A DNA stretch of 26,708 nucleotides, taken from positions 1 through 26,708 of the IMG/VR virus record IMGVR_UViG_3300025327_000138, one strand, 5' to 3'. A model generated the notes under the pieces. It made no database searches. It saw only the letters and a list, made by a program, of their open reading frames with translations, and had not been told where the DNA came from. The position numbers and the translations under genes were made by a program. This DNA is from a virus. Position 1 is the stretch's first letter, and each line of letters begins with the position of its first letter. This document shows positions 6,130 to 23,010 of this stretch, piece by piece.

Positions 6130-7537
6130 AGCGCTGGTGCCGCTCTATTCGTATCAGGAGCGCTGGGTGAAGGACCGCTCGCGGTTCAAGCTGGCGGTGA
6201 AGTCCACCCAGATCGGCTACTCCTTTGCGGCCTCGCTTGAAGCGGTGATTGAGGCGATGGGACAGAAATCGCTTTGGATCGTGCTGTCGCGCGGCGAGCG
6301 CCAATCGCTGGAATTCATGCAGAAAGTCCGCGACCACGTTCACGCCATGCGCATCGCCGAAGGGGAAGTCGAGACCAGCTTCTTCGAGCAGACGCAGCTC
6401 CTGCAGCACGAGGTGAAATTCCCGAATGGCTCCCGGATCATTGGCCTGCCGGCAAATCCGGACACCGCGCGCGGCTATACCGGGAACATGATCCTGGATG
6501 AGTTCGCCTTCCACCAGCAGGACAAAGCCATCTGGGCGGCGGCTTTCGGGCGGCTCTCGCGCGGCGGATTGAAGCTGCGCGTGATCTCGACCCCGAACGG
6601 CCAGCGCGGAAAGTATTTCGAGCTGGCCAAAGAACTGGGGCTGACGGGCGGCATGGCGCCTGATTCACAGCCCGTTCATGCCGGTGCGTGGAGCGGACAT
6701 TGGTGCGACGTGGAGATGGCCGTGCGGGACGGCTGCCCCATTGAGATTTCCGAGCTGCGCCAGGCCATTGGCGATGAGGATGTCTGGCAGCAGGAATATG
6801 AGTGCGTGTTCCACTCCGACTCGGAGAATTACATCCCGCTGGAACTGATCGTCAGTTGTGAAAGCGCAGACGCCTCGAAAGATTTGCCTGTGGGTTGGGT
6901 GGCGCAGGGGCCATGCTACTGGGGCTTTGACGTGGGCCGCACGCGCGACCTCTCGGTGCTGACGCTGGTCGAGAAACTCGGCGATGTCTGCACCGTCCGG
7001 ATGATGAAGGAGATGCCGAAGGCGCAGTTTGCGGCGCAGGAGAAAGCTATTGCGGACGTGGTGAACGCTCCGGAACTGAAAGCCCTGCGCGGCTGCATTG
7101 ACGCTTCCGGCCTCGGGATGGACCTGGCGGAGCGGCTGGCTAATAAATTTGCCGGGCGGGTCGAGCCGGTGCAATTCACCATGCAGGTGAAGCAGGACCT
7201 GGCGGTGACCATGAAAAAGGCGTTCGAGGAGCGCACCATCCGCATCCCGGACGACCGGCTGCTGCGGCGCGACATCAACGCTGTGAAGAAGATCATCACC
7301 ACGGCGGGGAATATCCGCTTCGACGCCGAGCGCACCGAAGCAGGCCATGCCGACCGCTTCTGGGCGCTGGCCCTGGCGCTGCATGCCGCCGACTCGGGCG
7401 TGGCGGCGGCGGAAGCGGGCACGGCGGCCACGGACGCGCGCGACGGCATTTGGGAACGCGGCGGCTACGGCGATGACCGGGAGTCGTTCTTCGACGCGGA
7501 TCGCGAGCCGGTGGGCGTGGGACTTTTCGGCAGGTAG
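6110..7537 (+). CDS. Large terminase subunit, Mu gp28-like
   Basis: This 475-residue protein is the packaging motor: an N-terminal ATPase pumps DNA and a C-terminal RNase H-like nuclease cuts it. The start region (YQERWVKDRSRFKLAV, then WIVLSRGERQSLEFM) is typical of the Mu gp28 type. Walker B is MILDE (127-131), the coupling motif is ISTPNG (159-164), and the nuclease carboxylates are likely D274 in GFDVGRTRD, D331 in CIDASG and the aspartate of HADRFWALALALHAAD. The Walker A region (residues 31-38, KSTQIGYS) lacks the usual GK[ST] lysine; other terminases with a QxGxS variant exist, so it is probably still active. It lies between the small terminase and the portal. Confidence 0.88.
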   Translation: MASPRNKALVPLYSYQERWVKDRSRFKLAVKSTQIGYSFAASLEAVIEAMGQKSLWIVLSRGERQSLEFMQKVRDHVHAMRIAEGEVETSFFEQTQLLQHEVKFPNGSRIIGLPANPDTARGYTGNMILDEFAFHQQDKAIWAAAFGRLSRGGLKLRVISTPNGQRGKYFELAKELGLTGGMAPDSQPVHAGAWSGHWCDVEMAVRDGCPIEISELRQAIGDEDVWQQEYECVFHSDSENYIPLELIVSCESADASKDLPVGWVAQGPCYWGFDVGRTRDLSVLTLVEKLGDVCTVRMMKEMPKAQFAAQEKAIADVVNAPELKALRGCIDASGLGMDLAERLANKFAGRVEPVQFTMQVKQDLAVTMKKAFEERTIRIPDDRLLRRDINAVKKIITTAGNIRFDAERTEAGHADRFWALALALHAADSGVAAAEAGTAATDARDGIWERGGYGDDRESFFDADREPVGVGLFGR

Positions 7538-7542
7538 CAACG

Positions 7543-9582
7543 ATGAGGTTGACGACACTCAACATCGGGTATCGGCCGGAGCGAGCGGCCCTTCGACTCG
7601 CTGCGCTCGCTCAGGACGATGGCGCGGAGATTCGCGCCATCGAGGCGGGAGTGCCGATCCTGTTCCCGAACCAAGGCGGGCCGGATGCCGGATACCGCAG
7701 GCTTTCGCAGTCCCCCAACGTGCGCGACTTGCTGGCGCCGCAGCAGGACCGTATGCAGCGCGTCGCCTATTACCTCTACGTCACCAACAATGTGGCCGCG
7801 CGGTGCGTCGAGATTTTGGTGGACTTCATTTGCGGCGAGGGCGTTAGCGTGGCCGCGGAAGAGCCCGCAGTGCAGGAAACGCTTGACGAGTTCTGGCACG
7901 ATCCCTGGAACGATCTCGACAAATTCGTTCCGCAGATGGTGCAGGGGCAGTCGGTCTTCGGCGAGTCGCTGGTGCAGTGCTACACCAATCCGGTGAGCGG
8001 GCAGGTGCGCATCGCGGATACCGATCCGCTGTGGATTGACGCGGTCGAGTACTCGACGCTCGAAGGCGATCCCGGCCGCGCCACCGGCCCGGCGCTGGCG
8101 GTGGTGTTGAAGCGCGACTACCAAGAAAAGGAAGCCAAGCGGCTGCGCGTGGTGAGCCGCGACGAAGACCCCTTTTCACCGGAGTACGGAATGCTGCGCG
8201 GGGAATGTTTCTACTGGCCGCTGCGCAAGGCGCGCGCGGCTACGCGCGGCATCTCCGACCTGTTCAAAAGCTCCGACCTGGCGGGCGCGCTGGAGCAAAT
8301 GATCTGGGCGGCGGTGCAGCATACCAAGCATCAGGGCGCGTTCATCTGGGACTTGTTATTGCGCGGCGCCACCCAGGAGCAGATTGACGACTGGCTCAAG
8401 AAAAACCCCGCGGGGCCTGCCGCCGCCGGGGTGCGCGTCCACAACGAGAACACGGAATGGAAAGCGGTCTCGCCGCAACTGGCCGCCTCCGAGCAGAACC
8501 GCATGGTGCAGACGGTGAAGTCGATGATCCTGGCGGGATTCGGTTTCCCGCCGCACTGGTTTGCCGAAGGCGGCGACGTGAACCGCGCGACGGCTTTAGA
8601 GATGGGCGATCCGGCGCTCAAGATGCTGACGCGGCGGCAGCGCGACGTGAAGTACCAGCTCGAAGAGATGCTGCGCTACGTGATCAGCGCCAAGATTGCC
8701 GCGGGCGCGCTGCCCGAGAATATCAACCAGGCCTTTGAAGTACAGATGCCGGAACTGTCGGTCAAAGACCAGGGGAAGATTGCGACGGCCTTGTCGCAGA
8801 CGGTGAGCGCGCTATCGCTGGCGCGGGCCGAGGGCCTGGTGGACGAGGAGACCGCGGCGAACGCCCTGGCCATCCAGATCCAGCAGCTGGGCGTGGAAGC
8901 AGACCCCGCGGAGATGCTCCGCAAAGCGCGCGCGGAGAAAGAAGCGGAGCGGGCGCGGGATTACCGGAACCGCAACGACGAACCACCGCTCCCTGGCGGT
9001 CGCGGCTCTGATCTGGAAACCGAGCCGCGCGCGTTGGAGGCTGAGTCCGGGGAGGAAAACGGGCGGTGGGTGACCATCAACGGGACATCCGTGTTCATCG
9101 ACGATTCCGGGAATATCACCAAAGGGCCAGCGGAGTTCGTCGGCAAGAAGCCTGCAGATATTGACGGCGGCGGCAGTAAAGCGGAACGCGATAAGGACGC
9201 TCGGGCTCTACGAGCTAAACGTATGCATGTGCCGGCAACGCGGGCCATGCAGCATCGCGCAGATCGAGAGCAGCGCCGCGTGGCGCAGATCTCTGGCGGG
9301 AAAGAAACGCCGGACAATTCGCCGACTGACGTGATCGTGGGCCGACATGCCATCGAAGTGAAAACGTTGCAGGTCCAGAAAAACGACAAAATCACGATGC
9401 ACCCGGACTCGTTGCGCCGAAAAGAATCATTCGTGCGGAGAAATAAAATGCAAGGGCATACGGTCGTCATCGATGCGCGAGGCTCCCGGCCGCAGTTTTA
9501 TTACCGGGAAGGATTCGGCTCGTTTCGACTGGGCGCAATGGAGGTCGTCAGCCAGGACGAGCTGCGAAGAAAATTCCGATGA
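7543..9582 (+). CDS. Portal protein with fused C-terminal nuclease-like domain
   Basis: The protein has 679 residues. Residues about 30-460 are a portal: it follows the large terminase, and it carries RDLLAPQQDRMQRVAYYLYV, the ring-building core and FGFPPHWFAEGGDVNRATAL. The portal forms the DNA channel at one head vertex. After a low-complexity linker (about 470-505, partly encoded by repeat family E) comes a different domain of about 170 residues: WVTINGTSVFIDDSGNITKG, a basic helix, then DVIVGRHAIEVKT with D596-x8-E605-x-K607, the spacing of a PD-(D/E)xK nuclease site, and MHPDSLRRKESFVRRNK. Toxin-like nucleases fused to portal or MuF proteins are known in phages. The N-terminus also contains a repeat (7588-7620). 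Confidence 0.82.
   Translation: MRLTTLNIGYRPERAALRLAALAQDDGAEIRAIEAGVPILFPNQGGPDAGYRRLSQSPNVRDLLAPQQDRMQRVAYYLYVTNNVAARCVEILVDFICGEGVSVAAEEPAVQETLDEFWHDPWNDLDKFVPQMVQGQSVFGESLVQCYTNPVSGQVRIADTDPLWIDAVEYSTLEGDPGRATGPALAVVLKRDYQEKEAKRLRVVSRDEDPFSPEYGMLRGECFYWPLRKARAATRGISDLFKSSDLAGALEQMIWAAVQHTKHQGAFIWDLLLRGATQEQIDDWLKKNPAGPAAAGVRVHNENTEWKAVSPQLAASEQNRMVQTVKSMILAGFGFPPHWFAEGGDVNRATALEMGDPALKMLTRRQRDVKYQLEEMLRYVISAKIAAGALPENINQAFEVQMPELSVKDQGKIATALSQTVSALSLARAEGLVDEETAANALAIQIQQLGVEADPAEMLRKARAEKEAERARDYRNRNDEPPLPGGRGSDLETEPRALEAESGEENGRWVTINGTSVFIDDSGNITKGPAEFVGKKPADIDGGGSKAERDKDARALRAKRMHVPATRAMQHRADREQRRVAQISGGKETPDNSPTDVIVGRHAIEVKTLQVQKNDKITMHPDSLRRKESFVRRNKMQGHTVVIDARGSRPQFYYREGFGSFRLGAMEVVSQDELRRKFR
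7588..7620. repeat. Interspersed repeat in portal gene N-terminus
   Basis: CCCTTCGACTCGCTGCGCTC followed by GCTCAGGACGATGG mixes the A and B half-elements. It is read in frame as about residues 16-27 (ALRLAALAQDDG). Confidence 0.65.
8986..9011. repeat. Interspersed repeat family E, copy at portal domain boundary
   Basis: CCGCTCCCTGGCGGTCGCGG then CTCTGA matches the transposase copy at 498. It sits in the linker between the portal body and the C-terminal nuclease-like domain. Confidence 0.65.
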
Positions 9583-9833
9583 GCTACGAATTATTTTCCG
9601 GGAATGAGACATTGGGACAGATTGCCTCAAACGCGGGCTGGCGCGAGACAGCCGCATTTCTGGAGCGCCAGGATGGCGCGGCGGCCGAACTCGCCGAAAC
9701 CGGCGAAGCGGATGCGGGAAAACTGTCCGCGCAATTACCCGGTTTGCTGGAGGAAGCCCCGGCTGACGTGCGCTCGGTTTTGGAAACTATCCAGGGATTA
9801 TTGCCGAGCAGCGGGGAGGTGAGCGTTGCCTAG
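9579..9833 (+). CDS. Small acidic protein directly after portal-nuclease (immunity candidate)
   Basis: The 84-residue protein starts MSYELFSGNETLGQIASNAG and is strongly acidic and helical. Its ATG overlaps the portal stop (ATGA), so the two are translationally coupled. Position and charge are those of an immunity protein for the nuclease-like domain at the portal C-terminus; this is inference. The alternative is a small structural or chaperone protein made between portal and MuF. Its last codons overlap the TTG start of the MuF-like gene. Confidence 0.6.
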   Translation: MSYELFSGNETLGQIASNAGWRETAAFLERQDGAAAELAETGEADAGKLSAQLPGLLEEAPADVRSVLETIQGLLPSSGEVSVA

Positions 9834-10737
9834 CGCGAAAGAGGAATTTACCGAGCGCGTGAACCGGCTGCTGCGGGAAGGCAGGGATTTGCCGGAAGAA
9901 GTCATTCGCCGCATGATCCGGGAACTCGAAGACGCGCGGCGCGATGCCTTGGCGCGGCTCGCGGGCCTGCCCAACGAAGGTTACACGCGCTTCCAGCTCG
10001 ATGCCGTGCGGCAGGACCTCGACCGATTGCTCGACGAGCTGGGGCGGCGGCTGACTAACCAGGTGGGCCAAGGACAGCGGCGCGGCTTCGAGATTGGCCG
10101 CGATGTGGTGGACGAGCCGTTCGGGCGCGCCGGGCTGGGTGTCAGTTACGGGCGGCTGCCCCTGGAGGACCTTGCGGCAGCAACGGATTACAGTGCCATC
10201 GCAATCACCAATATCACGAACGAGACGCGCGGGCTGATCAATGCGGCGCTGCGGCGCTCGCTGATGGGTGGCAAGCCGTTCCACGAAACGATCAATGAAA
10301 TTGCCGGGGCGCTCGGGGGAACTGAAAAAGGCCCGCCGAGCTTGTGGTCGAAGGCAGGGGAGCGGGCGTTCCGCATTGCGGCCACGGAGATTCCGACGGT
10401 GCAGGCGATAGCGAGCGACGCGCGGATCGGGCAGATGGCGGAGCGTTACGGCAAAGGCGCGGTCCAGAAAGATTGGCGGCATCATCCCGTGGCGCGGGTG
10501 CCGCGCGTGGGGCACCTGCTGCTGGGCGCATCGCCGCCGATTCCGGTGGACGAGCGGTTTGTGAATCCGGAGACGCTGGCGACGCTGCGCTTCCCGCACG
10601 ATCCGGCGGTGGAGCCGGCCAGTCAGTCGGCCAGCGAAAACATTCAGTGCTCGTGCGCGATGGCGCCGCACATCGCGGCATCCAGCGCGCTCGACAAGCG
10701 CCTGGAGGAGTCGCGGGCGCGGGCGCTGGCGGCATGA
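9826..10737 (+). CDS. MuF-like head morphogenesis protein
   Basis: The 303-residue protein starts at TTG 9826, with GGGGAGG upstream. The first 90 residues are charged helices. Residues 110-270 fit the Phage_Mu_F family: NITNETRGLINAALRRSLMG, GGKPFHETINEIAGALG, then RAFRIAATEIPTVQAIASDA, and near the C-terminus the cysteine motif ENIQCSCAMAP that usually ends the domain. MuF proteins are minor head proteins needed for assembly, carried in few copies and sometimes injected. Placement after portal and before protease/capsid is as in Mu (gp29, gp30). No toxin extension is seen on this copy; the nuclease-like domain is on the portal instead. Confidence 0.8.
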   Translation: MPSAKEEFTERVNRLLREGRDLPEEVIRRMIRELEDARRDALARLAGLPNEGYTRFQLDAVRQDLDRLLDELGRRLTNQVGQGQRRGFEIGRDVVDEPFGRAGLGVSYGRLPLEDLAAATDYSAIAITNITNETRGLINAALRRSLMGGKPFHETINEIAGALGGTEKGPPSLWSKAGERAFRIAATEIPTVQAIASDARIGQMAERYGKGAVQKDWRHHPVARVPRVGHLLLGASPPIPVDERFVNPETLATLRFPHDPAVEPASQSASENIQCSCAMAPHIAASSALDKRLEESRARALAA

Positions 10738-10739
10738 GC

Positions 10740-10815
10740 GCCCCGGCCTGCCGGGGCTGGAGAAAAGGATTTACCGTAGCCCAGCCGTTAACGGCTGGAA
10801 TCAAAAGGAGGAACG
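10740..10815 (+). promoter_or_regulatory. Two-hairpin leader before the 85-residue gene
   Basis: CCCCGGCCTGCCGGGG (10741-10756) and the 18-bp perfect palindrome CCAGCCGTTAACGGCTGG (10781-10798) precede AAAAGGAGG and the ATG at 10816. Neither hairpin has a T-run, so they are not standard terminators. They may stabilise or insulate the downstream mRNA. Confidence 0.55.
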
Positions 10816-11073
10816 ATGCAAGAAGAACAGAAGCAGGAAAAGGGGACGAAGGAAGAGCTGCGACCACAGGTGAAGGTGTGCCTTGGTTCGCACGCCGAGG
10901 ACGGCAAGATGATCGCCGACTACGCGCGGTTTCCGCAGCCGCGCGGGCCGCAGGACTTCCCGAAAGGGACCGTGTTGGACAAAAGCAAGGATGGCCGCAC
11001 CGTGGTGACGGTGGACGGACAGAAGTTCCGCTTCGGGGCGGATATACCGCCCGTAACTGCGCAGCGCGCTTAG
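10816..11073 (+). CDS. Hypothetical protein between MuF and capsid genes (85 aa)
   Basis: The sequence begins MQEEQKQEKGTKEELRPQVK and contains FPKGTVLDKSKDGRTVVTVD, which looks like a small beta domain. AAAAGGAGG lies just before the ATG, so expression should be good. The last 13 codons and the stop lie inside a double-hairpin module (11036-11081), so the C-terminus is dictated by that element. I do not recognise the family. A minor head or assembly role is inferred from position. Confidence 0.6.
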   Translation: MQEEQKQEKGTKEELRPQVKVCLGSHAEDGKMIADYARFPQPRGPQDFPKGTVLDKSKDGRTVVTVDGQKFRFGADIPPVTAQRA

Positions 11074-11090
11074 CCGCGCGCCGCGAAAGC
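11036..11090 (+). repeat. Double-hairpin module D, copy 1
   Basis: Stem GGGCGG/CCGCCC with loop ATATA (11036-11052), linker GTAACTGCGCA, then stem GCGCGC/GCGCGC with loop TTAGCC (11064-11081), followed by CGCGAAAGC. The TAG in the second loop is the stop codon of the 85-residue gene. It compares with the copies at 13421, 14604, 15636 and 18179. Confidence 0.7.
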
Positions 11091-11117
11091 AAGAGCCACG
11101 GGGGAAGGGAGTGAGCG

Positions 11118-13364
11118 ATGAAATTACGATTTGAGCTGGTGGAGTGGCTGCTGGCCCACGGAGAGCTTTCGAAGCCGGCCAATGATGGGTGGATCTGGCC
11201 GGCGGTAATTATCCGCGCGGGCCTGTCGCAGATACAGGTGCCCGGCTCGAAGCTGCCGGTATGGATCACGCGCGAGTTCATCGGCAAGGCGGCAGCGCAC
11301 TTCGAGGGCGCGCCGGCTAACGCCGACCATCAGGAGAAGGGCAACGTGCGGGCCTGGGTCGGCAACTGGAAGGGCGTGCGCGCGGAAGCCGATGCGCTGC
11401 TCGGCGAGCTGCATCTGCTCAAGAGCGAAGGCTGGCTGCGCGAGAAATTGCTGGCCGGCCAGGAAGTCGGCGGGCACCAGCCGGGCGTGTCGATCAACGC
11501 CGTGATCGGACTGAAGCGCGCGCGCCGCGACATTGACGGCCGGGGGGCCGACGTGCTCGAAGCGCAGGAGCCGATCCCGAACACTCCGCGCACGGCGGAC
11601 GTGGTGATGTTTCCGGCGGCGGGCGGAAAGATTTTGAAGTTGGCGGCGGGCGAGGACCCAGAAGCGGCCCTGGCCAGCGCGCGCGAGCAATATCAAGTTC
11701 TCCCGGCAGACCGCCGGGACAATCCAGGCTCCGCAGAACGGAGCAACGAAAAAGGAGCAACCATGAAAGAGACCATTCTGAGGCTACTGGCTTCGCTCCG
11801 TGCTCTATCGCTGACGGAGGCCGCAAAGACCAAAGTCACGGCGATTGAGGCGGAGCTGAAGCGGGAGAGTCCGAAGTTCGAAGAGTTGTTGGCGCAGGCC
11901 GGCGACATTATGCAGGAAGCGGCTGCGGCTGCGGCCGCGGCCGGCGCGGCCACGCCGGTGGCGGCGCTGCAGGGTGAAGTGAAGACATTGCGCGAGCAAG
12001 TAGCCGCGGCGCAGGAGGCGCAGAAAAAGGCCGACTGGAAGCTGCTGCTGGCCTCCAGGCTGACGGCATCGAAGCTGCCGCAACCGCTCCAGAACCGCAT
12101 GCGGGAGCGATTGCTGGAGACGGTGCTGACGGCGGAGCTGCTGGACGCGGAGATCAAAGCGGAGCGGGACACTTACGCGGCGCTGGTGCCCAGCGCGGCG
12201 CGCGCGTCCGGCATTCCGGCGATCACGCTGGGCTTGGAAGGGATCGACAAGCTGCGCATCGCGGCTTGCCGCACGTTCGGAGTGACGCACGACTGGGAGC
12301 GCGTGGAGGCCGGCGGGCTGTTGAGCTGGCGGCGCGGCGCGGCGTTCGACAATGCGGTGCCGGGCTTCAGAAGCCTGAAGCATCTCTACGCCACCCTAAC
12401 GGGCGACGTAGAGTTCAGTTTCGATCCGGCGCAGGCGCATCTCCACGGCGACATCACCTCGACCACGTTCACAAACCTGATGCGGGACACCATGCACCGC
12501 CTGCTGTTGCAGGGCTATGCCGAGCCGAGCTACGGCCTGGACCTGGTGGTGCCCTCCAGGAACCGCACGGCGGTTACCGACTTCAAAAACCAGGAGCGGG
12601 TGCGGGTGGGGTATTTCGGAGACCTGCCGGAGCACGACCCGGAAGTCTCCGAGTGGCCGGTGCTGACGGCGCCCACCGACGAGCGCGCTACCGGAGCGGT
12701 GGTGCAGTTCGGCGGCGTGGTGCCGATCACCCGCAAGGCCATCAAAAACGATGATCTGGGCGGCATCACTCAAACCGTCAACAATCTGGGGCGCACGGCG
12801 CGGCGGACGCTGGCGCAACGCGTCTACAACTTGATGATCAACAATCCGGCGACGACCTACGACGTGGTGACCTGGGCGCATGCATCTTCGCATGGGGCCA
12901 ACCTGCGCACCACGGCGCTGTCGGCGGCGGAGATCGAGGTCATCGCGCAGCTGATGTACCTGCAGACGGAGAAGGACTCCGGGAAGACGCTGGGCATCGA
13001 GGCCGCCATCCTGATTGTGCCGCGGCAGTTGCAGAAGACAGCCAAAGACCTCAACGAGCATCAGAAGGAAGATGCCGCGCTGAACGAGGCCATTCACCGC
13101 TTCGGCGCGAACAGCGAGCGCATCATCACCAACCCGCTGTTCACCGATGCCACCGACTTTGTGGTGATGGCGGACCAGAGCCAGGTGCCCTGCATCGAGC
13201 TGATGTTCATGGACGGGCGGCAGGAGCCGGAATTGTTCCTGGCAGACAACCCCAACGAAGGGACGCTGTTCACCAAGGACGAGATCCGGTACAAAATCCG
13301 GCACGAGTACGAGGCGCTGATCACGGACCATCGCGGATACGCCAAGAACGTCGTCGCCGGCTAG
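11118..13364 (+). CDS. Prohead protease-scaffold-major capsid protein fusion
   Basis: The protein has 748 residues. Residues 1-180 look like a phage prohead serine protease, with H71 (NADHQEKGNV) and S125 (PGVSINAVIG) as likely catalytic residues. Residues 216-320 are a helical, alanine-rich delta/scaffold part. Residues about 330-748 are an HK97-fold major capsid protein (FRSLKHLYATLTGD, FGGVVPITRKAIKND, TLAQRVYNLMINNP, C-terminal DEIRYKIRHEYEALITDHRG). In Mu these are separate genes (gp32, gp34). At the junction an intergenic-like stretch with two hairpins and AAAAAGGAG is followed by an in-frame ATG at 11763. A separate 533-residue scaffold-capsid product is therefore likely in addition to the full fusion. 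The start at 11118 is preceded by GGGAGTGAGCG. Confidence 0.8.
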   Translation: MKLRFELVEWLLAHGELSKPANDGWIWPAVIIRAGLSQIQVPGSKLPVWITREFIGKAAAHFEGAPANADHQEKGNVRAWVGNWKGVRAEADALLGELHLLKSEGWLREKLLAGQEVGGHQPGVSINAVIGLKRARRDIDGRGADVLEAQEPIPNTPRTADVVMFPAAGGKILKLAAGEDPEAALASAREQYQVLPADRRDNPGSAERSNEKGATMKETILRLLASLRALSLTEAAKTKVTAIEAELKRESPKFEELLAQAGDIMQEAAAAAAAAGAATPVAALQGEVKTLREQVAAAQEAQKKADWKLLLASRLTASKLPQPLQNRMRERLLETVLTAELLDAEIKAERDTYAALVPSAARASGIPAITLGLEGIDKLRIAACRTFGVTHDWERVEAGGLLSWRRGAAFDNAVPGFRSLKHLYATLTGDVEFSFDPAQAHLHGDITSTTFTNLMRDTMHRLLLQGYAEPSYGLDLVVPSRNRTAVTDFKNQERVRVGYFGDLPEHDPEVSEWPVLTAPTDERATGAVVQFGGVVPITRKAIKNDDLGGITQTVNNLGRTARRTLAQRVYNLMINNPATTYDVVTWAHASSHGANLRTTALSAAEIEVIAQLMYLQTEKDSGKTLGIEAAILIVPRQLQKTAKDLNEHQKEDAALNEAIHRFGANSERIITNPLFTDATDFVVMADQSQVPCIELMFMDGRQEPELFLADNPNEGTLFTKDEIRYKIRHEYEALITDHRGYAKNVVAG
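11700..11765 (+). promoter_or_regulatory. Internal ribosome-binding site and hairpins inside the capsid fusion
   Basis: CCCGGCAGACCGCCGGG and GCTCCGCAGAACGGAGC are two hairpins, then AAAAAGGAGCAACCATG gives a strong start at 11763 in the same frame. The layout is that of the intergenic leaders elsewhere in the cluster, yet the frame is open through it. Confidence 0.65.
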
Positions 13365-13422
13365 GGCGGGTATGCGGTTCGACTTTCGCTCACCGTCCTG
13401 AGCGGAGCCGAATGGACCGCCC
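13364..13422. repeat. 59-bp inverted repeat, left copy (contains family A)
   Basis: Starts GGGCGGGTATGCGGTTCGAC and ends GAATGGACCGCCC. It is identical over all 59 bases to the reverse complement of 14680-14738. It begins at the capsid stop codon. Confidence 0.85.
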
Positions 13423-13460
13423 GCAATTGCGCAGGGCCGCTTAGCCGCGGCCCTGCGAAG
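13421..13460 (+). repeat. Double-hairpin module D, copy 2 (second hairpin)
   Basis: CGCAATTGCGC linker followed by an 11-bp perfect stem CGCAGGGCCGC/GCGGCCCTGCG with loop TTAGCC (13430-13457), then AAGG. The place of the first hairpin is taken by the 59-bp repeat. Confidence 0.7.
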
Positions 13461-13509
13461 GAAAAACATCAGAGCCCCGACCGCAAGGGAGGGGTCAAAG
13501 GAGAAAAAC

Positions 13510-14601
13510 ATGAAACGAGTTTGGAAGGAATTGACAAGCATGGAGGCGCTGGTGCTGCTGGTGGCGCTGGCGCTGGCGAGCCCGGCGCTGCTGATAGCGC
13601 AGAGCGGGCCGCTCGACCGCAGCGTGGGAATGATTCACAGCTCGGGGTTGTTCTACGAGTTTACCGCCGGGGCCGCCACGATTGCCGCCAACGACGCGGT
13701 CTATCTGACGACCGCCGGCACGGTGCTGAAAGTTCCGATCACCGGGCAGACCACCACGCTCATCGGGGTGGCGCCCTTCGCCTGCGCGGCCAACTCGACC
13801 ACCTGCATAGTGCAGATAGACGGCAAAGCCACGGTCGTGGCCGATGACGCCATTGTGGTGGGAGATTATGTCGGCGCGCCGACGACCACGGCCGGGCGCG
13901 TGCTGGCGCTGACCGGCACCATCGACACGAATCTGGTAGTGGGCAAAGCGCTGACGGCGCAGGCCACTCCCGGAGGGACCCTGACGATCTTGCTGCTGCC
14001 CGGCAAAGGCGGCACGGCGCTGGGCAACGGCACCAGCGGCGGCATCGTGTACTACAGCGGCACCAACACGGTGGCCTCATCGGCGGCGCTGACGGCGAAC
14101 TCTCCGGTGCTGGGCGGAGGCGCGGGCACTACGCCGGCGACAGTGGCCGGGATCACCTCGGACGGCGCATCGCAAGTCCGCCTGGGCGTTGCGGGCACTT
14201 CGGTGGGCAGCGTGCGGTATAGCAACGCCACTTCTGGGACGATCACGCAGTCTCCGGTGACCGGGGCGCTGGGCACGATTGCGCAAACCATCCCAGCGGT
14301 CGCTGGCACCCAGATGTTCCAGTTGGGGACCACTGTCACGCTGGCGAACGTGGATCTGGACACCACCGACAACTCGATTGCGGCTCACGTCTGCGAGGAC
14401 CTGGTGCTGACCGCAACGGGCTTGACGGCGACCGACAACATCGCCTGGATCATGACGACGTCAGACCTGGCCGCCACGTTCAACGTGCAACTGCACACGC
14501 CGGCGACGGATGCGATTACCGCGCGGACGTGCAACAACTCCGCCGCCGGGGCCGACCCCGGAGCGGTGGCCGACTTCCGCATCGTGCGGCTGATGCCCTG
14601 A
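13510..14601 (+). CDS. Decoration/fibre-like protein with N-terminal signal peptide
   Basis: The protein has 363 residues. Residues 1-31 (MKRVWKELTSMEALVLLVAL, then ALASPALLIAQ) look like a Sec signal peptide, unexpected for a head gene. Residues 35-165 (FYEFTAGAATIAANDAVYLT, ...LIGVAPFACA, ...VVGDYVGAPTT) resemble the small beta-rich DUF2190-type proteins that follow capsid genes and decorate heads. Residues 170-280 are Gly/Ser/Thr-rich repeats (TSGGIVYYSGTNTVASSAAL) of the kind in fibre proteins. The C-terminus (to RIVRLMP) is probably beta-rich. GGAGAAAAAC precedes the ATG; the ATG at 13540 is an alternative start. The gene is bracketed by the 59-bp inverted repeats. A decoration protein is likely; a secreted surface protein is the alternative. 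Confidence 0.6.
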   Translation: MKRVWKELTSMEALVLLVALALASPALLIAQSGPLDRSVGMIHSSGLFYEFTAGAATIAANDAVYLTTAGTVLKVPITGQTTTLIGVAPFACAANSTTCIVQIDGKATVVADDAIVVGDYVGAPTTTAGRVLALTGTIDTNLVVGKALTAQATPGGTLTILLLPGKGGTALGNGTSGGIVYYSGTNTVASSAALTANSPVLGGGAGTTPATVAGITSDGASQVRLGVAGTSVGSVRYSNATSGTITQSPVTGALGTIAQTIPAVAGTQMFQLGTTVTLANVDLDTTDNSIAAHVCEDLVLTATGLTATDNIAWIMTTSDLAATFNVQLHTPATDAITARTCNNSAAGADPGAVADFRIVRLMP

Positions 14602-14603
14602 CG

Positions 14604-14679
14604 GCGCGGGTATACCGCGCGGAATTGCGCTCATCGCTCAGCCGCTCTTCGCGAACCGCGCAGCGTGCGAGCGCATTAC
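14604..14679 (+). repeat. Double-hairpin module D, copy 3
   Basis: Stem GCGCGG/CCGCGC with loop GTATA (14604-14620), linker GGAATTGCGC, then a longer GCGCTC/GAGCGC closed region. It starts two bases after the stop of the decoration-like gene. Confidence 0.65.
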
Positions 14680-14738
14680 GGGCGGTCCATTCGGCTCCGC
14701 TCAGGACGGTGAGCGAAAGTCGAACCGCATACCCGCCC
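14680..14738. repeat. 59-bp inverted repeat, right copy
   Basis: Exact reverse complement of 13364-13422. Together with families B and D it fills the 389-bp region 14602-14990, in which I see no certain gene apart from the possible upstream extension of the following gene. Confidence 0.85.
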
Positions 14739-14833
14739 CGGCCTGAGCGGTGAGCCGCGAATCATCGCTCGTGCGCGCGACATGAGCCGCGCAAAACCTC
14801 CCGGGGCGGTTCGGGTTCGCCGCCCCGTTAAAA

Positions 14834-14890
14834 GCAGGTTCCTCGCGGAGTTTCCCCTGAGCAAAGCCGAAGGGCTCGCTCGGGATGACA
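14834..14890. repeat. Interspersed repeat family B, intergenic copy
   Basis: GCAGGTTCCTCGCGGAGTTT ... CTCGCTCGGGATGACA. It is close to the copy at 16480-16536 over its whole length, including the CTGAGCAAAGCCGAAGGG middle. Confidence 0.75.
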
Positions 14891-14906
14891 GCGGGGGAGA
14901 AAGGGT

Positions 14907-14932
14907 CGCAGCGCGCGGCTAAGCGCGCTGCG
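14907..14932 (-). repeat. Double-hairpin module D, second hairpin in inverted orientation
   Basis: On the minus strand this reads TTGCGCAGCGCGC, loop TTAGCC, then GCGCGCTGCG: a 10-bp perfect stem with the same loop and TTGCGC flank as the plus-strand copies. Confidence 0.65.
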
Positions 14933-14990
14933 CAATGGGGTACGCAGTACGCCGACAATTGCGCAATTCCAGCAGGCCGTAGCGTTCCGG

Positions 14991-15635
14991 GTGCAAGATT
15001 CGGCTCAGAAACTCGCGCAGGCCGCCATCGATGCCTGTATCGTCAAGGCCGTCAAGGGGCGCTACGCGCAGGCGCGCCCGCTGCTGCGCATCAAAGATTT
15101 TGCTGGCGACTCGGCCACTTACGAGTACGCCGTGGACGCGGCGACGTTCGCCGACTGGGTGGATGAAGCGAGCTTTATCCGCTCGCTCGAATATCCCGCC
15201 GGGGAGAAGGAGCCGGTCTACATCGATCCGGATGATTACCGGATCGTCCAGATCAGCTCGACAGTCAAGATGCTCCGGCTGCTGACGACGGTCCCGCAGG
15301 CTGGGAAGACGCTGCGGATCGAATACTCGGTGCCGCACTCCGACGATGCCTCGACGGTGCCCGGAGTGGACTTCGAGGCGGTCTCCGATCTGGCGGCGTC
15401 GTATGCCTGCGTCGCGCTGGCGGCGTATTACAACCAGATGGGAGACCCGGCTTACGGCGCGGCGGCGGTCGATCATCAATCGAAGTCGCAGCAGTACCTC
15501 TCGATGGCGAAGAAATATGGGGAGCAATTCGAGGGCGCGTTGGGGCTGAATGCAGACGTGAAGCAGCGGCCGGCCACAAGCTGGCGCGAGTGGGAAGCGG
15601 AAGGCGGCGGCGGGGAATTGCCGCTGACGCATTGA
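14991..15635 (+). CDS. Head-tail connector-like protein
   Basis: The 214-residue protein begins here at GTG 14991 (VQDSAQKLAQAAIDACIVKA). It has helices, a beta region (ATYEYAVDAATFADWVDEAS, FIRSLEYPAGEKEPVYIDPD) and a C-terminal helical part (SDLAASYACVALAAYYNQMG, SKSQQYLSMAKKYGEQFEGA). That last part resembles head-completion adaptors, where a helical hairpin binds the portal. The frame reads like protein upstream of the GTG (PTIAQFQQAVAFR, from about 14952), so the true start may be earlier, possibly a non-standard ACG at 14949. Position between capsid and tail genes supports a connector role. Confidence 0.6.
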   Translation: MQDSAQKLAQAAIDACIVKAVKGRYAQARPLLRIKDFAGDSATYEYAVDAATFADWVDEASFIRSLEYPAGEKEPVYIDPDDYRIVQISSTVKMLRLLTTVPQAGKTLRIEYSVPHSDDASTVPGVDFEAVSDLAASYACVALAAYYNQMGDPAYGAAAVDHQSKSQQYLSMAKKYGEQFEGALGLNADVKQRPATSWREWEAEGGGGELPLTH

Positions 15636-15708
15636 GCACGGGTATACCGTGCGAAATTGCGCGCCGCTTCCGTCCCCCTCACAGGGGGAAGCCCCAGGTC
15701 GCGGCGCG
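15636..15708 (+). repeat. Double-hairpin module D, copy 4
   Basis: Stem GCACGG/CCGTGC with loop GTATA (15636-15652), linker GAAATTGCGC, then stem CGCGCCGC/GCGGCGCG (15660-15667 with 15701-15708) enclosing a CCCCCTCACAGGGGG hairpin, then AAAG. It starts directly after the connector stop. Confidence 0.7.
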
Positions 15709-15725
15709 AAAGAAAGGGCACAAAG

Positions 15726-15950
15726 ATGAAGCCAAGCATCGGACGGATCGTGATATTTCACCTCGGTGATGGCGATGACGGAATCAACAACGGATCGAGG
15801 GAAGTGGCCGCCATTGTCACGCGGGTGTGGAATGACATCTGTGTGAACCTGCGGCTGTTTTATGACGGAGAAGGGTGTCCGACGGAATGGAAAACCTCGG
15901 CGGAGCTAGGCACGCAGCCGGGCCAGTGGAGCTGGCCGGAGAGGGTGTAG
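15726..15950 (+). CDS. Small phage protein of the head-tail junction (74 aa)
   Basis: The sequence MKPSIGRIVIFHLGDGDDGI, VAAIVTRVWNDICVNLRLFY and a tryptophan-rich end (PGQWSWPERV) form a compact SH3-like beta protein. This small family is frequent in phages between capsid and tail genes (IGRxVxY...VNLxVFxDG...WHWP, by memory). Its function is not established to my knowledge. AAAGGGCACAAAG precedes the ATG; a longer frame from 15657 runs through the hairpin module and is not used. It is followed four bases later by the next gene. Confidence 0.65.
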   Translation: MKPSIGRIVIFHLGDGDDGINNGSREVAAIVTRVWNDICVNLRLFYDGEGCPTEWKTSAELGTQPGQWSWPERV

Positions 15951-15953
15951 GCG

Positions 15954-16475
15954 ATGATCGGAATCGGCGTAACGCTGAATGCGGAGAAGGTGAAGCTGCT
16001 GCTGGAAAAGGCGCCGGAGGAGCTGCGCGCGGCCATTGAGCTGGGCTCGGCGAAGCTGCTCTCGGCGATGCAGCAGACGGCGGTGGGCGTCATCGAGAAG
16101 CACACGCCGTATCCGGCAGTCGCTTTCGGGAACCTGGCGCGCGGAATTGATTTCGAAGTGGCAACCCGCCCGCCGCTCGGGGGGCTGCTGTTCGTGAAGC
16201 CGCCCGCAGACACGTACGCGCTGCCGATGGAAACCGGGACGCGGCCGCATTTCCCGCCGACAGCGGCGCTGCTGCCGTGGGTCTTGAAAAAGTTTCCCGG
16301 CGCGGACGAGAAGAAGGCGAAGTCGTTCGCATTCCTGATCGCCCGGAAAATTTCGAAGGTGGGAACGACGGGCGTGTTCTTTTTCGAGAAGACCCGGGCG
16401 GCGCACGAGCCGGACGCCGCCGCGGTCTACGAGGAGTTCCTGGATGCCGCAATCGCGCGCCTGGAGCAGCCATGA
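15954..16475 (+). CDS. Minor tail/connector protein, HK97 gp10-like
   Basis: The 173-residue protein opens with an N-terminal helix (KVKLLLEKAPEELRAAIELG, KLLSAMQQTAVGVIEKHTPY), then a Gly/Pro-rich beta part (PMETGTRPHFPPTAALLPWV) and a C-terminal helix. The motif of a Met-Glu-x-Gly-Thr segment followed by helices is typical of HK97 gp10-type proteins that help join tail to head. GGAGAGGGTGTAGGCG lies before the ATG, which falls three bases after the preceding stop codon. Position between connector genes and the tail terminator candidate agrees. Confidence 0.65.
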   Translation: MIGIGVTLNAEKVKLLLEKAPEELRAAIELGSAKLLSAMQQTAVGVIEKHTPYPAVAFGNLARGIDFEVATRPPLGGLLFVKPPADTYALPMETGTRPHFPPTAALLPWVLKKFPGADEKKAKSFAFLIARKISKVGTTGVFFFEKTRAAHEPDAAAVYEEFLDAAIARLEQP

Positions 16476-16479
16476 AAAA

Positions 16480-16536
16480 GCAGGTCCTTCGCGGAGTTTA
16501 CCCTGAGCAAAGCCGAAGGGCTCGCTCAGGATGACA
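16480..16536. repeat. Interspersed repeat family B, intergenic copy
   Basis: GCAGGTCCTTCGCGGAGTTT ... CTCGCTCAGGATGACA. A 17-codon reading begins at the ATG at 16472 and runs through it; I treat this as the repeat, not a gene. Confidence 0.75.
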
Positions 16537-16546
16537 TGGGTGGAAG

Positions 16547-17038
16547 ATGAAGCTCACGGAGATCATTCACGAGATCGCGGAGCTGCTCCGGGCGCAAGCG
16601 GGCATCAGCGGCGGCGCCGCCAAGGTTACGGAATACACCCAGGCCGCCGAGACCGAGGAGCAGATGATCGATGCCTACGTCGCCTACAAAGGCACGGCGC
16701 AGGCGCTGCTGCATGGCTGGGTGGTGACGCGGGAGGAGATGGAAGCGCCGGAAGGCACGGCGCGCGCGCCGCGCAAGCTCCATCACATCGCCATCCACGG
16801 ATTCCGCGCGGTGGCCTCCTCGACCGACTCCGAGCAGCTGCACCAGGAGCTGACGGAAACCGTGATCGATGCGCTGAACGCGGCGGCGCATGGCGCGCTG
16901 CCGAATCAAGCCGGATACATCAAGAGCTTCGCGCAATTGCCGGAAGCAGACCTGCGGTTGTTTGGCGGCCCGAAACTCAAGATCGCGGTGTGGTACTCGA
17001 AAATCACGCTGACAGCCACGCCCTGGCCATTAAATTGA
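16547..17038 (+). CDS. Tail terminator/completion protein candidate
   Basis: The 163-residue protein has an N-terminal helix (MKLTEIIHEIAELLRAQAGI), a central beta sheet (RKLHHIAIHGFRAVASSTDS) and a helix plus strands to the end (KLKIAVWYSKITLTATPWPLN). This alpha/beta order, size and position just before the major tail protein are those of tail terminators that cap the tail tube. No diagnostic motif can be named, so the call rests mainly on context. The ATG is preceded by a short TGGAAG. Confidence 0.5.
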   Translation: MKLTEIIHEIAELLRAQAGISGGAAKVTEYTQAAETEEQMIDAYVAYKGTAQALLHGWVVTREEMEAPEGTARAPRKLHHIAIHGFRAVASSTDSEQLHQELTETVIDALNAAAHGALPNQAGYIKSFAQLPEADLRLFGGPKLKIAVWYSKITLTATPWPLN

Positions 17039-17043
17039 TGAAC

Positions 17044-17079
17044 GGGTAGCCCACTCAAACTCTTTTGAGTGGGGCACCC
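17044..17079 (+). promoter_or_regulatory. Hairpin before the major tail gene
   Basis: Stem CCCACTCAAA/TTTGAGTGGG (17050-17059 with 17064-17073) inside an outer GGGT/ACCC pair, followed by AAGAAGGAGAG and the ATG at 17100. No T-run follows, so it is more likely a 5' stabilising structure than a terminator. Confidence 0.55.
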
Positions 17080-17099
17080 AGGAAGAAGGAGAGAACGAC

Positions 17100-18179
17100 A
17101 TGGGAGCATTTCTGCCGGCATGGATTCAGGAAGCCTACCTGGCGCTGTCAACCAAGGTGCAGGCCAACATGGCCACGGTGATTGGAGATGTCAATTTCGA
17201 CATCTGGCTATCAGTCGAGGGCTACCATCCGCCTAGCCAGTCTCGCAAGGCGCTGACGGATCGGGGCGATTCCGGGCGCGGCACGCCATTCGCATCTCCG
17301 GCCGGACACAAAAGAACGTCGCACGATGCCGACATGGACATCACAGTCAACGCATCGTCGCTGATGACCGGTTGGGCGGCCTCGATGTGCCTGGGCGGCT
17401 ATGCCGCACCCACCAACCCCGCCCCTGGCGTCTATAACCACGTCTTCACGATGCGCGATCCGACGGTATCGAAGGATGCCCGGATCAGTTCTGCTTACTC
17501 GCAGCTCGGCGCCGACGCCGCCTACCAGAAGAAGATTTGCGCCGTAACGGTGGCGCGGTTCACGCTGCGCGGCAACCGCCGCGGCGGCGCCAATGACGCG
17601 CTGCAACTGACGTGCAGCCTGATCAGCTCCGGCGAGATGATTGCCGATCCGGTAACCATTGCGGCGCCGACGGCGCAGGCCTTCCTCGATGCGGGAGGCG
17701 TAACGTTCAATTTCGGGGCGCAGGGCTCGCCGGTGGATTTGAGCGAGCGCCTGGATACTTTCGAGCTGAGCTTCGATCAGGACATCAATTTGGAGCTGAC
17801 GCGGATACCGGGCTCAGGGCTTTACCGCGGCAGGATGTGGCGCGGCCCGAATATGTTCGCCGGCTTCACTGCCGACCTGTTCCTCGACTCCGCCGACGCC
17901 GACATCCTGGACGCGGCGGATGGGGATACGATCCTGGAGGCGGAGTTCGATTGCCAAGGAGAACTGATCGACGCCACCTACTTCAACTATTTCAAGGCGC
18001 GCTGGCCATCGTTCCGGCTGGTCAATGCGCCGTTCAAGGATGTGGCGGGATACCAGGCGCACACGCTGGTGGTGGACCGCGATACGGTCTACAGCGATAC
18101 CGGGTCGACGCCGGCATCGACGCCAATCGTGGTAACGGTGCAGAACGCGCTGCCGGCTTATCTGGCCGCCGCCGCCTAG
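17100..18179 (+). CDS. Major tail (tube) protein
   Basis: The 359-residue protein starts at ATG 17100, with AAGGAGAG upstream. It is a beta-rich protein with segments such as FDIWLSVEGYHPPSQSRKAL, GGYAAPTNPAPGVYNHVFTM, SERLDTFELSFDQDINLELT and a C-terminal stretch of strands. The order (before a chaperone candidate and the tape measure), strong ribosome-binding site, upstream hairpin and the NHVFTM-type core found in tube proteins support the tail-tube call. It would polymerise around the tape measure to form the long tail. The stop overlaps the first base of a double-hairpin module. Confidence 0.7.
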   Translation: MGAFLPAWIQEAYLALSTKVQANMATVIGDVNFDIWLSVEGYHPPSQSRKALTDRGDSGRGTPFASPAGHKRTSHDADMDITVNASSLMTGWAASMCLGGYAAPTNPAPGVYNHVFTMRDPTVSKDARISSAYSQLGADAAYQKKICAVTVARFTLRGNRRGGANDALQLTCSLISSGEMIADPVTIAAPTAQAFLDAGGVTFNFGAQGSPVDLSERLDTFELSFDQDINLELTRIPGSGLYRGRMWRGPNMFAGFTADLFLDSADADILDAADGDTILEAEFDCQGELIDATYFNYFKARWPSFRLVNAPFKDVAGYQAHTLVVDRDTVYSDTGSTPASTPIVVTVQNALPAYLAAAA

Positions 18180-18233
18180 CGGGGATATGCCCCGCGAAAT
18201 TGCGCAGGGAACCTCGATGGGCTCCCTGCGAAG
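18179..18233 (+). repeat. Double-hairpin module D, copy 5
   Basis: Stem GCGGGG/CCCCGC with loop ATATG (18179-18195), linker GAAATTGCGC, then stem CGCAGGGA/TCCCTGCG (18203-18210 with 18223-18230) and AAGG. Linker and trailing TGCGAAGG match copy 2. Confidence 0.7.
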
Positions 18234-19489: not shown

Positions 19490-19583
19490 CAGTGATGCGT
19501 GATGCGTGATGAGTGGTTAGCAAAAGCAACGGAAGGAACGCGGCGCCCGGCTTAGAGGGCGCAGCGCAAAGGCCGACGCAGTC
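19490..19583. repeat. Intergenic spacer with short tandem repeat and hairpin
   Basis: GTGATGC is repeated head to tail (19493-19510), followed by GCGCCCGGCTTAGAGGGCGC, a hairpin with a TTAG-containing loop, in front of the tape-measure start. Confidence 0.5.
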
Positions 19584-22187
19584 GTGGCCATACAGAAGCT
19601 CCAACTCGCCGTAGAAGTCTCGGAAGACCCGAAGGGTTTCTCCGGGTCGATCCAGCAAGTTGAGCAGCTCGAAGACCGCGTCAAGGCGCTCACCAAAGAT
19701 ACCGTCGAATTGCGTAAGCAGAAAGAAGCCGTGACGGCGCAGCTCCGCGCCTACGACCGGCAGATGGCATCGGGGACACGGCTCACCCAGGAGCAGGGCA
19801 AGCAAGTCGAAGCCCTCACGCTGCGGGAGAGTGAGCTGGCGAACTCGCTAGGGCGCTCGGAATTCAGCTCGCGCACGGCAAGGCAGGAATTGCGCAACCT
19901 GAATTTCGCCGCGAACGATGCCCGCATGGAGGCGCAGCTATTGGCGGCGCAGTTTGGCGTGCATCTTCCAGTCGGTATCGACAAATTGTTGTCGCGCCTG
20001 CCGGCGGTGCAGCAGGGCATCAGCAAGGCTTTCAATGCCGGGATCATGGTGGCTTTCGGGGTGGCTGGCGGACAGGCGCTGGCGCGCCTGATCGTCGAGA
20101 TCACGCAGTTTGACTCCACGCTGCAAGGGCTGAAGCAAACCATCGCGGATGTCTTCAGCCCATTCGAGGCGGCAGCCCGCGGCCTGCACGAGGCGAATGT
20201 CGCGGAGGCCTCGGAAAAGCAGTCACAGCGGGTACTGGCGTCCATCGAGCGGGCGCGCAAGACGCGCGAAGAGACAGCACTGACCGGCCGGGAAGGGACC
20301 GACCTGCTCCGGGCGCAGCAGGCGCAGGCCATCGAGGAGCTGCGCCGCCGCCAGCAGCAGGAGGGCTTGCCGCTCGGCGTGGTGGCGCAGGAAGCCGTCG
20401 CCATCAACCAAAAGTTCGGCGCGGAGATTTCCGCGGCGCTCGCCAAACGCACCGAGGAGTTGCGCAAGCGCGTGGACGCGCTCGAGGAGCAGGAGGCGCG
20501 GCTCGCGGAGCAGGAGGCGCGGCTCGCGGAGCAGGAGCGTAAGACGCTGCTGGGGCCGGGGATCAAGACGGTCGAAGTCGAGGCCGGACTGGGGGCGCAT
20601 CCCGAGGCGGTTGTGGCCGCCGGGGAGCGGATCAAGACCATTGGAGCGACTCAAGCGAAAATCCGGGAGCTGGAAGCGGACGCTGAAGTCGCCCGACTGA
20701 CCGGGAACCAGCGCACCCTGGCCCAGATCGCGCTCCAGGAGCAGCGCCACCTGGCCGAATACCGGAAGCTGCTCGACGAGGGAATCATCTTCCAAAGTGA
20801 ATACGAGCAGGCGCGCACCGCGATTGCCATTGACGCCGAAGGCGAGCGCATGGAGGTCGCGCGGCGGGCGGCGGAGGAGCAGCGCCAACTGATCGAAGCC
20901 ACCGCGCGCGATTGGGAGTCGATGTTCGACCGCATTACCGGCGGCGCGCACAATATGGGCGACGTGCTCGGCAATATCTTCGACGAGATCAAGCGGGCGT
21001 GGAAGCGGCAGATTTTCGAGATGCTGGCGGCGGCGGTTGTTGGCGGAAAAGCAGGTCCCTCGTCGGCGACAGGCGCCTCGCTCGGGATGACAGGCGGCAG
21101 AGGGATACTTGGCAGCATTCTGGGATCGGTGCTTGGAGGGGGAATCGCCGGAGGCGGCCAGGCGGTTGGCGCCGCGACGCCGCCATTCATCCCCAATCAG
21201 TTTGCCGCGGGCACCAGCGCGCTCTCCGGGCTGGGCCTGGCCGGGGCCGGAGGACTAGGCGGCGGCATCTTTGCGGCGGCGGCGCAGCCCACGCAGGCCG
21301 CGGCGATGGGCTTGCCGGCAACCACGCCGATCGGAGATCTGCTGTCGAAGGTTTTCCCGCATTCCATCGGCGGCGTAGGAGGGCCGACGCTGGCATTGGG
21401 CGGGCTGACATTGGCGGGGCTGGGCCTGGGGCATGGCTCCCTGCTCGGCGCGCTCGGCGGCCTCGCTGGCGGCGCGCTCACGGGCTTTGCGGTGGGCGGG
21501 CCGATTGGAGCCATAGTCGGCGGGATCATCGGCGGCATCGCCGGGCTGTTTGGCGGGAACAAGAAGAAGGAATCGGACGCCCGGATCGAAGAGCAAGGCT
21601 TCGCCACGATCAAGCAACTGCTCGAAGAGTACAGCAGGCAGCGCATCGACTATGCCTCGACCTTCGAAGGCTATCAGCAGGTCCATCAGCAGATGCAGGG
21701 GGCCTTCCAGCGGCCACAATCGAAGCGCCACGAGCAGTACTGGTTCGACCAGTACATCAAGCAGCTCCAGGGAATCGAAGACGAGCGCAACCGGCGGCGT
21801 GATTTTCTGAGCGGGTTTGCGGTGCCGGAGTTCGAGAGCGGCGGATTTGTGGACGCCACCGCTTACTCCCGTGCGCGGCTCGGAAACGCGCGGCTCGGAA
21901 ACGCGCGGCTCGGAAACGCGCGGCTCGGATTCGCTGCGGGGGGCGAGGTGCCCGCGATCCTGCACTCGGGCGAGTACGTGATGTCGCGGCCGGCGGTGGA
22001 GCGCTGGGGCGCAGACCTGCTGGCGCGGATGAACTCATCCGAGCCGCGCGGGCAAGCAAGCGGTGGCGACGGCTACGAGATGCATATCTGGGCGCCGTCG
22101 AAGGCATGGGCGGCGAAGGTGGTCGAGGAAGGCCTTGCGGTGGTTATCGGCAAAGGCGGCCGCGCAAGCAAGATGCTGCGCGGGTGA
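19584..22187 (+). CDS. Tape measure protein
   Basis: The protein has 867 residues from GTG 19584. The N-terminal 450 residues are long helices and coiled coils (EQLEDRVKALTKDTVELRKQ; EEQEARLAEQEARLAEQERK). Residues about 480-660 are Gly/Ala-rich hydrophobic segments (LGMTGGRGILGSILGSVLGG; GFAVGGPIGAIVGGIIGGIA). Near the end come the GGEVPAILHSGEYVMSRPAV motif frequent in tape measures and a short C-terminal domain. It sets tail length and helps DNA entry through the host membrane. An interspersed repeat is read in frame at about residues 490-503 (21051-21091), and a four-fold ARLGN repeat at about residues 764-783 (21859-21930). The length predicts a tail of roughly 130 nm if the usual 0.15 nm per residue rule holds. 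Confidence 0.85.
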   Translation: MAIQKLQLAVEVSEDPKGFSGSIQQVEQLEDRVKALTKDTVELRKQKEAVTAQLRAYDRQMASGTRLTQEQGKQVEALTLRESELANSLGRSEFSSRTARQELRNLNFAANDARMEAQLLAAQFGVHLPVGIDKLLSRLPAVQQGISKAFNAGIMVAFGVAGGQALARLIVEITQFDSTLQGLKQTIADVFSPFEAAARGLHEANVAEASEKQSQRVLASIERARKTREETALTGREGTDLLRAQQAQAIEELRRRQQQEGLPLGVVAQEAVAINQKFGAEISAALAKRTEELRKRVDALEEQEARLAEQEARLAEQERKTLLGPGIKTVEVEAGLGAHPEAVVAAGERIKTIGATQAKIRELEADAEVARLTGNQRTLAQIALQEQRHLAEYRKLLDEGIIFQSEYEQARTAIAIDAEGERMEVARRAAEEQRQLIEATARDWESMFDRITGGAHNMGDVLGNIFDEIKRAWKRQIFEMLAAAVVGGKAGPSSATGASLGMTGGRGILGSILGSVLGGGIAGGGQAVGAATPPFIPNQFAAGTSALSGLGLAGAGGLGGGIFAAAAQPTQAAAMGLPATTPIGDLLSKVFPHSIGGVGGPTLALGGLTLAGLGLGHGSLLGALGGLAGGALTGFAVGGPIGAIVGGIIGGIAGLFGGNKKKESDARIEEQGFATIKQLLEEYSRQRIDYASTFEGYQQVHQQMQGAFQRPQSKRHEQYWFDQYIKQLQGIEDERNRRRDFLSGFAVPEFESGGFVDATAYSRARLGNARLGNARLGNARLGFAAGGEVPAILHSGEYVMSRPAVERWGADLLARMNSSEPRGQASGGDGYEMHIWAPSKAWAAKVVEEGLAVVIGKGGRASKMLRG
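21051..21091. repeat. Interspersed repeat family B, copy in tape measure
   Basis: GCAGGTCCCTCGTCGGCGAC ... CTCGCTCGGGATGACA encodes AGPSSATGASLGMT in the glycine-rich region. Confidence 0.75.
21859..21930. repeat. Interspersed repeat family E with four 15-bp units, in tape measure
   Basis: Starts ACCGCTTACTCCCGTGCGCG, then GCGCGGCTCGGAAAC units in tandem. It encodes RARLGNARLGNARLGNARLG just ahead of the C-terminal motif. Confidence 0.75.
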
Positions 22188-22190
22188 GTG

Positions 22191-22272
22191 GTAGCCACGG
22201 CACGCAGTTTGTGCCGTGGGATTGTTGGACGGACGCGAAAGGCCCACGGCACAAGAACCGTGCCGTGGCTAC
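22191..22272. repeat. Cloverleaf-like inverted repeat family C, copy 1
   Basis: Outer arms GTAGCCACGGCACG and CGTGCCGTGGCTAC enclose two GCCGTGGG/CCCACGGC segments and a centre containing TTGTTGGACGGAC. Each half can also fold on itself (CCACGGCAC with GTGCCGTGG), so a cruciform or branched RNA is possible. Confidence 0.75.
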
Positions 22273-22922: not shown

Positions 22923-23004
22923 GTAGCCACGGCACGATGTTTGTGCCGTGGGGTTGTTGGACGGACGGAAGAGGCCCACGGCACGAAAGGCGTGCCGTGG
23001 CTAC
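22923..23004. repeat. Cloverleaf-like inverted repeat family C, copy 2
   Basis: Same orientation and structure as 22191-22272, with base changes in the loops (CACGATGTTTGTG against CACGCAGTTTGTG) and conserved arms and TTGTTGGACGGACG centre. Confidence 0.75.
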
Positions 23005-23010
23005 AAAAGC

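Follow-up and report, generated by a model that had tools for sequence, protein, structure and literature searches.

A two-hairpin module recurs in the gaps between structural genes of this soil-type phage. It does not represent a single conserved RNA, because two near-identical relatives (L030 and L033) hold different repeats in equivalent gaps. It is probably a fast-turnover palindromic repeat of the REP/BIME kind, one of several families that are swapped in structural-gene gaps and would be carried as a hairpin in late mRNA. The window, that is, the whole stretch analysed, is the 26.7-kb IMG/VR virus record IMGVR_UViG_3300025327_000138 (1-26,708). Its structural operon lies on the + strand and includes the following genes, whose starts were set by inspection:

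6110-7537, + strand, terminase large subunit
7543-9582, + strand, portal
9826-10737, + strand, head morphogenesis
10816-11073, + strand, small gene
11118-13364, + strand, fused head protease/major capsid
15954-16475, + strand, neck-type gene
19584-22187, + strand, tape measure

Each module is laid out as a 6-bp stem (HP1) with a 5-nt loop, a linker ending in AAYTGCGC, and a second stem (HP2) closed by GCGC...GCGA. Eight copies were found in the window, five sense (C1-C5) and three antisense (C6-C8), all within 11.0-19.6 kb in gaps of the structural operon. The scores below come from a covariance model (R1) built from six aligned rows, among them HP2 of C2, of C6 and of the relative L017; training copies are recovered by construction.

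11036-11088, + strand, C1: HP1 GGGCGG-ATATA-CCGCCC, linker and HP2 (73.8 bits)
13364-13460, + strand, C2: HP1 GGGCGG/CCGCCC with about 42 extra loop nucleotides, linker, and an 11-bp HP2 with a TTAGCC loop (57.5 bits)
14604-14656, + strand, C3: HP1 GCGCGG-GTATA-CCGCGC, HP2 weak (67.6 bits)
15636-15711, + strand, C4: HP1 GCACGG-GTATA-CCGTGC directly 3′ of a TGA, with a longer HP2 (28.3 bits)
18179-18233, + strand, C5: HP1 GCGGGG-ATATG-CCCCGC, HP2 of 8 bp plus an inner stem (65.4 bits)
14904-14950, - strand (antisense to the genes), C6: 10-bp HP2 with a TTAGCC loop, weak HP1 (54.2 bits)
14647-14738, - strand, C7: inverted copy of the C2 HP1, loop insert and linker (17.6 bits, E 0.002)
19536-19578, - strand, C8: HP2-like copy in the gap 5′ of the tape-measure gene (28.0 bits, E 2e-6)

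C4 and the antisense copy at 19536-19578 were picked up by the model in addition to its training rows. An earlier sequence-only reading had described four full modules at 11036, 14604, 15636 and 18179 with variable yet paired first stems, and these are present as it described them. The core GGRTATRCC-N6-AAYTGCGC occurs four times on the + strand, and still four times with two mismatches allowed, against a shuffle expectation of 0.02 (0/100 shuffles reach four). In the window copies CGNAAYT adjoins HP1 and GCGA follows HP2. Across the six-row alignment 92.6% of cells are paired, and sliding the pairing partners lowers this to 23-54%. Both-sided changes occur in 6 of 17 pairs (shuffled mean 2.7, with a value as high in 1 of 500 shuffles), so that the compensatory change noticed earlier is genuine covariation, though thin at six rows. 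Single-strand folding formed HP1 in all four full modules and a clear HP2 in C1, C2, C4 and C5. The second stem that had been claimed for every full module is therefore clear in C1, C4 and C5 and weak in C3, for which no clear HP2 was obtained. A scan of the window against Rfam 15 gave no family above the gathering threshold, in agreement with the earlier view that the module belongs to no named RNA family. A palindromic DNA operator was considered and set aside, as the outer stem positions appear to change jointly in both arms, which a dimer site would not need.

Four of the five sense copies begin -1 to +2 nt from a stop codon: C2 and the HP1 of C5 each start on the last base, G, of a TAG stop codon, which for C2 is that of the capsid gene. 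The earlier observation that modules directly follow stop codons is thus borne out generally, with the exception of C1, into which the small gene 10816-11073 runs. C1 lies over the 3′ end of this gene, provides the last ~12 residues of its product and places its TAG stop in the HP2 loop TTAGCC. Homologues of this protein end in charged tails; the window protein ends in GADIPPVTAQRA, encoded by C1, which occupies the place of the tail. All five HP1-complete sense copies point along transcription, and this shared direction hints at selection at the RNA level.

The first stem of C2 (13364-13369/13417-13422) encloses a loop of 47 nt instead of the usual 5 nt, and the hairpin at 13430 that had been taken as isolated is the second half of this full module. 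The inserted loop sequence is a repeat in its own right; most of it recurs at 19091 (89%). The composite of first stem, insert and linker (13359-13427) was copied again in inverted orientation at 14675-14743 (69 nt, 96%). The resulting C7 stands head to head with C3 as an inverted pair, and TTCGCGAA is common to both. The inverted hairpin at 14907, also described earlier as isolated, has a weak first hairpin and is matched by the whole model on the - strand at 54 bits.

Every gap of the structural operon in the window has a palindromic or repeat element, and these elements belong to at least six families; the module is probably one lineage-specific family among several. Two further elements are:

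10738-10815 (gap), + strand, a two-hairpin cassette unlike the module (CCCCGGCCTGCCGGGG ... GTAGCCCAGCCGTTAACGGCTGG); 43 nt of it recur in another gap of L017
22191-22275, + strand, a GTAG-ended inverted repeat pair in REP/BIME layout, with a second copy at 22923-23007

The latter two copies are GTAG...CTAC inverted palindrome pairs that are 88% identical and have the classic REP/BIME layout, and a palindrome matching the 22191 pair fills a gap of L033 (2601-2638). Repeats of GCGCGGCTCGGA, which form part of a host-type REP family, are found at 21874-21944 and 22038-22068 and also at 498-568; those within the tape-measure reading frame are 15-nt in-frame repeats. A tandem array with a spacing of 39/51 nt occupies 743-1405 inside a long reading frame (104-1621) for which no PHROG match was found.

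The strongest evidence on the nature of the module comes from L030 and L033, whose coding sequences flanking four gaps are 91-95% identical while the gaps themselves are only 39-59% identical. In gap D, L030 has the two-hairpin module and L033 has a CCACGGAGACACAGAG repeat plus a GATCCCTCGCTGCGCTCGGGATGACA repeat. In gap A, L030 has a CCGCTCCCT repeat, and its counterpart in L033 is an unlike repeat that folds strongly. Gap C contains a heptad repeat and a GATCCCTCG repeat in L030; in L033 it contains a GTAG-type palindrome that matches the window element at 22191. Gap B has no special folding in either phage, so not every gap requires a hairpin. No target-site duplications were seen by eye in the L030/L033 gaps, and the insertion point in L030 is ambiguous because the L033 gap likewise opens with GGGCGG. 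The 43-nt piece of the cassette in the 10738 gap is found in L017 after the capsid gene, a non-equivalent position. The differences between near-identical phages, together with the mixture in the window, indicate that the content of the gaps is renewed far more rapidly than the genes and comes from a common pool of palindromic and tandem repeats. L026, L027 and L028 likewise have their own repeats in these gaps. Heptad-like tandem repeats (GTCAGTA, GACTTTG, GTGACGA and GGTGTTA) are present in gaps of L027, L028, L030 and L031, often with a complementary run that gives a long hairpin. Shared 12-mers were counted in 82 of 200 gaps versus 32 in coding controls, a figure on which we do not rely, as the gene calls used for it were crude and did not recover the modules of the window itself.

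Beyond the window the module was seldom found. A model search of ~80 capsid-defined relatives returned two convincing matches. L017 has the second hairpin in the equivalent post-capsid gap (46 bits; this row is also in the training alignment), and L030, which is outside the training set, has the whole module in another gap, immediately 3′ of a TGA (35 bits). A model search of bacterial genomes had been proposed in the sequence-only reading; in 396 Acidobacteriota genomes, among which the true host probably does not figure, it gave five lone, GC-rich matches at 27-30 bits. These, and one in the class of the Acidobacteriota genome G100, were judged to be chance, being GC-rich and single. The exact core pattern had five matches in IMG/VR and seven in GTDB contigs, none with stems; the pattern used on GTDB was narrow and fits only C3 among the window copies, so that for GTDB this is weak evidence of absence. 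A pattern for HP2 with TTAGC had L017 as its only real match in IMG/VR and none in the 396 Acidobacteriota genomes. A search for relatives by tail protein found none; phages closely related to that of the window are sparsely sampled. In none of the genomes searched was the module found as an abundant repeat, nor was a transposase linked to it.

The host is probably an Acidobacteriota lineage, because a repeat class shared by the window and L030 (CCGCTCCCTNNCGGTCGCGGCTCGGA) has 4-5 copies per genome in two Acidobacteriota that are related to each other (reversed control pattern, 0); the module is absent from these two genomes. In one of them, G100, inverted copies of the CCGCTCCCTNNCGGTCGCGGCTCGGA family stand on either side of a gene with a Y1-transposase domain. 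This REP-transposase unit (L115; G100:C37:46400-49400, ~627-1530) carries a repeat that is also present in the window.

The copy number, the paired stems, the two orientations, the overlap with a gene end, the loop insertion, the inverted re-copying and the turnover of gap content are all observed steps in the history of the module. We infer the enzyme that would move it, which way it would pass between host and phage, and any influence on how fast mRNA decays. The module would be copied or swapped as DNA, in a REP/BIME- or MITE-like manner, into tolerant sites just 3′ of stop codons, and its stems would be kept in each copy since what moves, or is tolerated, is the hairpin as a unit. After settling in a gap, the module would be co-transcribed with the capsid and tail genes and fold at the 3′ end of the upstream message, where it would most likely form a generic barrier to 3′-5′ decay and insulate the cistrons from each other. 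Such a generic 3′ hairpin role for gap elements is plausible and unproven.

Selection may go further than tolerance. Across 78 relatives, the first 80 nt downstream of the capsid stop have a folding z that averages -2.5, far better than shuffled sequence, versus -0.3 for coding controls (P ~8e-13), and post-capsid gaps fold more strongly than other gaps (z -2.4 vs -1.5, P 0.0035), with the caveat that these P values ignore relatedness and some contigs are near-duplicates. Despite this richness in hairpins, post-capsid sequences vary from phage to phage. Structural-gene gaps might accordingly be viewed as "hairpin slots" in which a stable 3′ hairpin is selected, most strongly after the capsid gene, and its sequence is free, so that mobile palindromes from a host pool serve as interchangeable parts that tune late-gene mRNA. 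We regard this extension as less likely than not.

The sequence-only reading had suggested processing sites, mRNA stabilisers or protein-binding elements. A dedicated phage RNA of this sort would be a processing or stabilising site of the RNase III/RNase E type, or one bound by a phage protein, and would set the relative expression of structural genes. Five sense copies, four of them at stop codons, the compensatory changes in the stems, the same second hairpin 3′ of the L017 capsid gene and the post-capsid hairpins of relatives all speak for it. However, three of the eight copies are antisense and one lies over a gene end, the loop insertion in C2 is tolerated and its loop repeat was re-copied inverted, and the second stem of C3 is weak. 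Furthermore, L033 has other repeats in place of the module, and among ~80 relatives it is found only in L017 and L030. We therefore consider a dedicated element unlikely. The plain mobile repeat to which the earlier reading had opposed it agrees largely with what was found, namely both orientations and gap replacement, the exception being that every copy is in a transcribed gap.

Somewhat less probable still is that the gaps are phage crossover points and that immobile repeats were carried along by homologous or illegitimate recombination. The window and L017 do form a mosaic: identity is 77-84% for terminase, portal and head morphogenesis and only 48% for the capsid, with the break at ~11.1 kb, just 5′ of the capsid gene. 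Gap content also switches exactly between conserved genes. With L030 and L033 at 91-95% identity around every changed gap, however, many double crossovers within ~100 nt would be needed, and the inverted re-copying of C2 inside one genome would be left unexplained. Intrinsic terminators between structural genes, although suggested by GC-rich hairpins directly 3′ of stop codons, are very improbable, since no T-run follows any module, none of the terminator-like sites in the window falls on one (8 sites vs 11.2 in shuffles), and a terminator after each structural gene would cut the operon. There is likewise no excess of promoter-like sites in the window.

The preferred reading, a mobile palindromic repeat, can be placed among known elements. 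ERIC and BOX are MITE-like composite repeats that are small, dispersed and folding, lie in transcribed gaps, and have sub-modules and internal insertions. The module is likewise a small, dispersed, folding element with sub-modules and an internal insertion; it differs in that terminal inverted repeats or target duplications are not established for it. C3 and C7 form an inverted pair. REP/BIME elements are palindromes tagged with GTAG and CGTC, with proposed roles in mRNA stability and termination (PMC3733652). They are short, GC-rich gap palindromes, single or in inverted pairs, some of them at the ends of coding regions (PMC3733652), and the module resembles them as an extragenic palindrome with heterogeneous stems, kept pairing and both orientations. 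In contrast to REP, its window copies have neither a GTAG nor a CGTC tag, and it is therefore classed as a REP-resembling variant rather than as REP; GACG, the complement of CGTC, is found beside HP1 only in L030 and may be there by chance. Further differences are that it combines two unlike hairpins with a conserved linker, and that it occurs in phage records and is not high-copy in any genome searched. Flanking of a Y1 transposase (RAYT) was seen for another window repeat family, in G100. In cluster K mycobacteriophages, extended start-associated sequences (ESAS) occur among non-structural genes, immediately 5′ of start codons and together with a 13-bp SAS (PMC3203893). They share with the module the character of phage-specific repeats with inverted repeats, located in several gaps and nearly all in one orientation (PMC3203893). 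Unlike the modules, which adjoin structural-gene stop codons and turn over, they are retained next to the same gene families in different phages (PMC3203893).

If such repeats do turn over faster than the phage genes that flank them, phages would carry REP-like elements and at the same time serve as a testing ground for their evolution, and covariation of hairpins within one genome could not by itself indicate a conserved RNA. The post-capsid position, rich in hairpins of unrelated sequence in relatives, offers a testable case for structure-only selection on the 3′ ends of phage mRNA.
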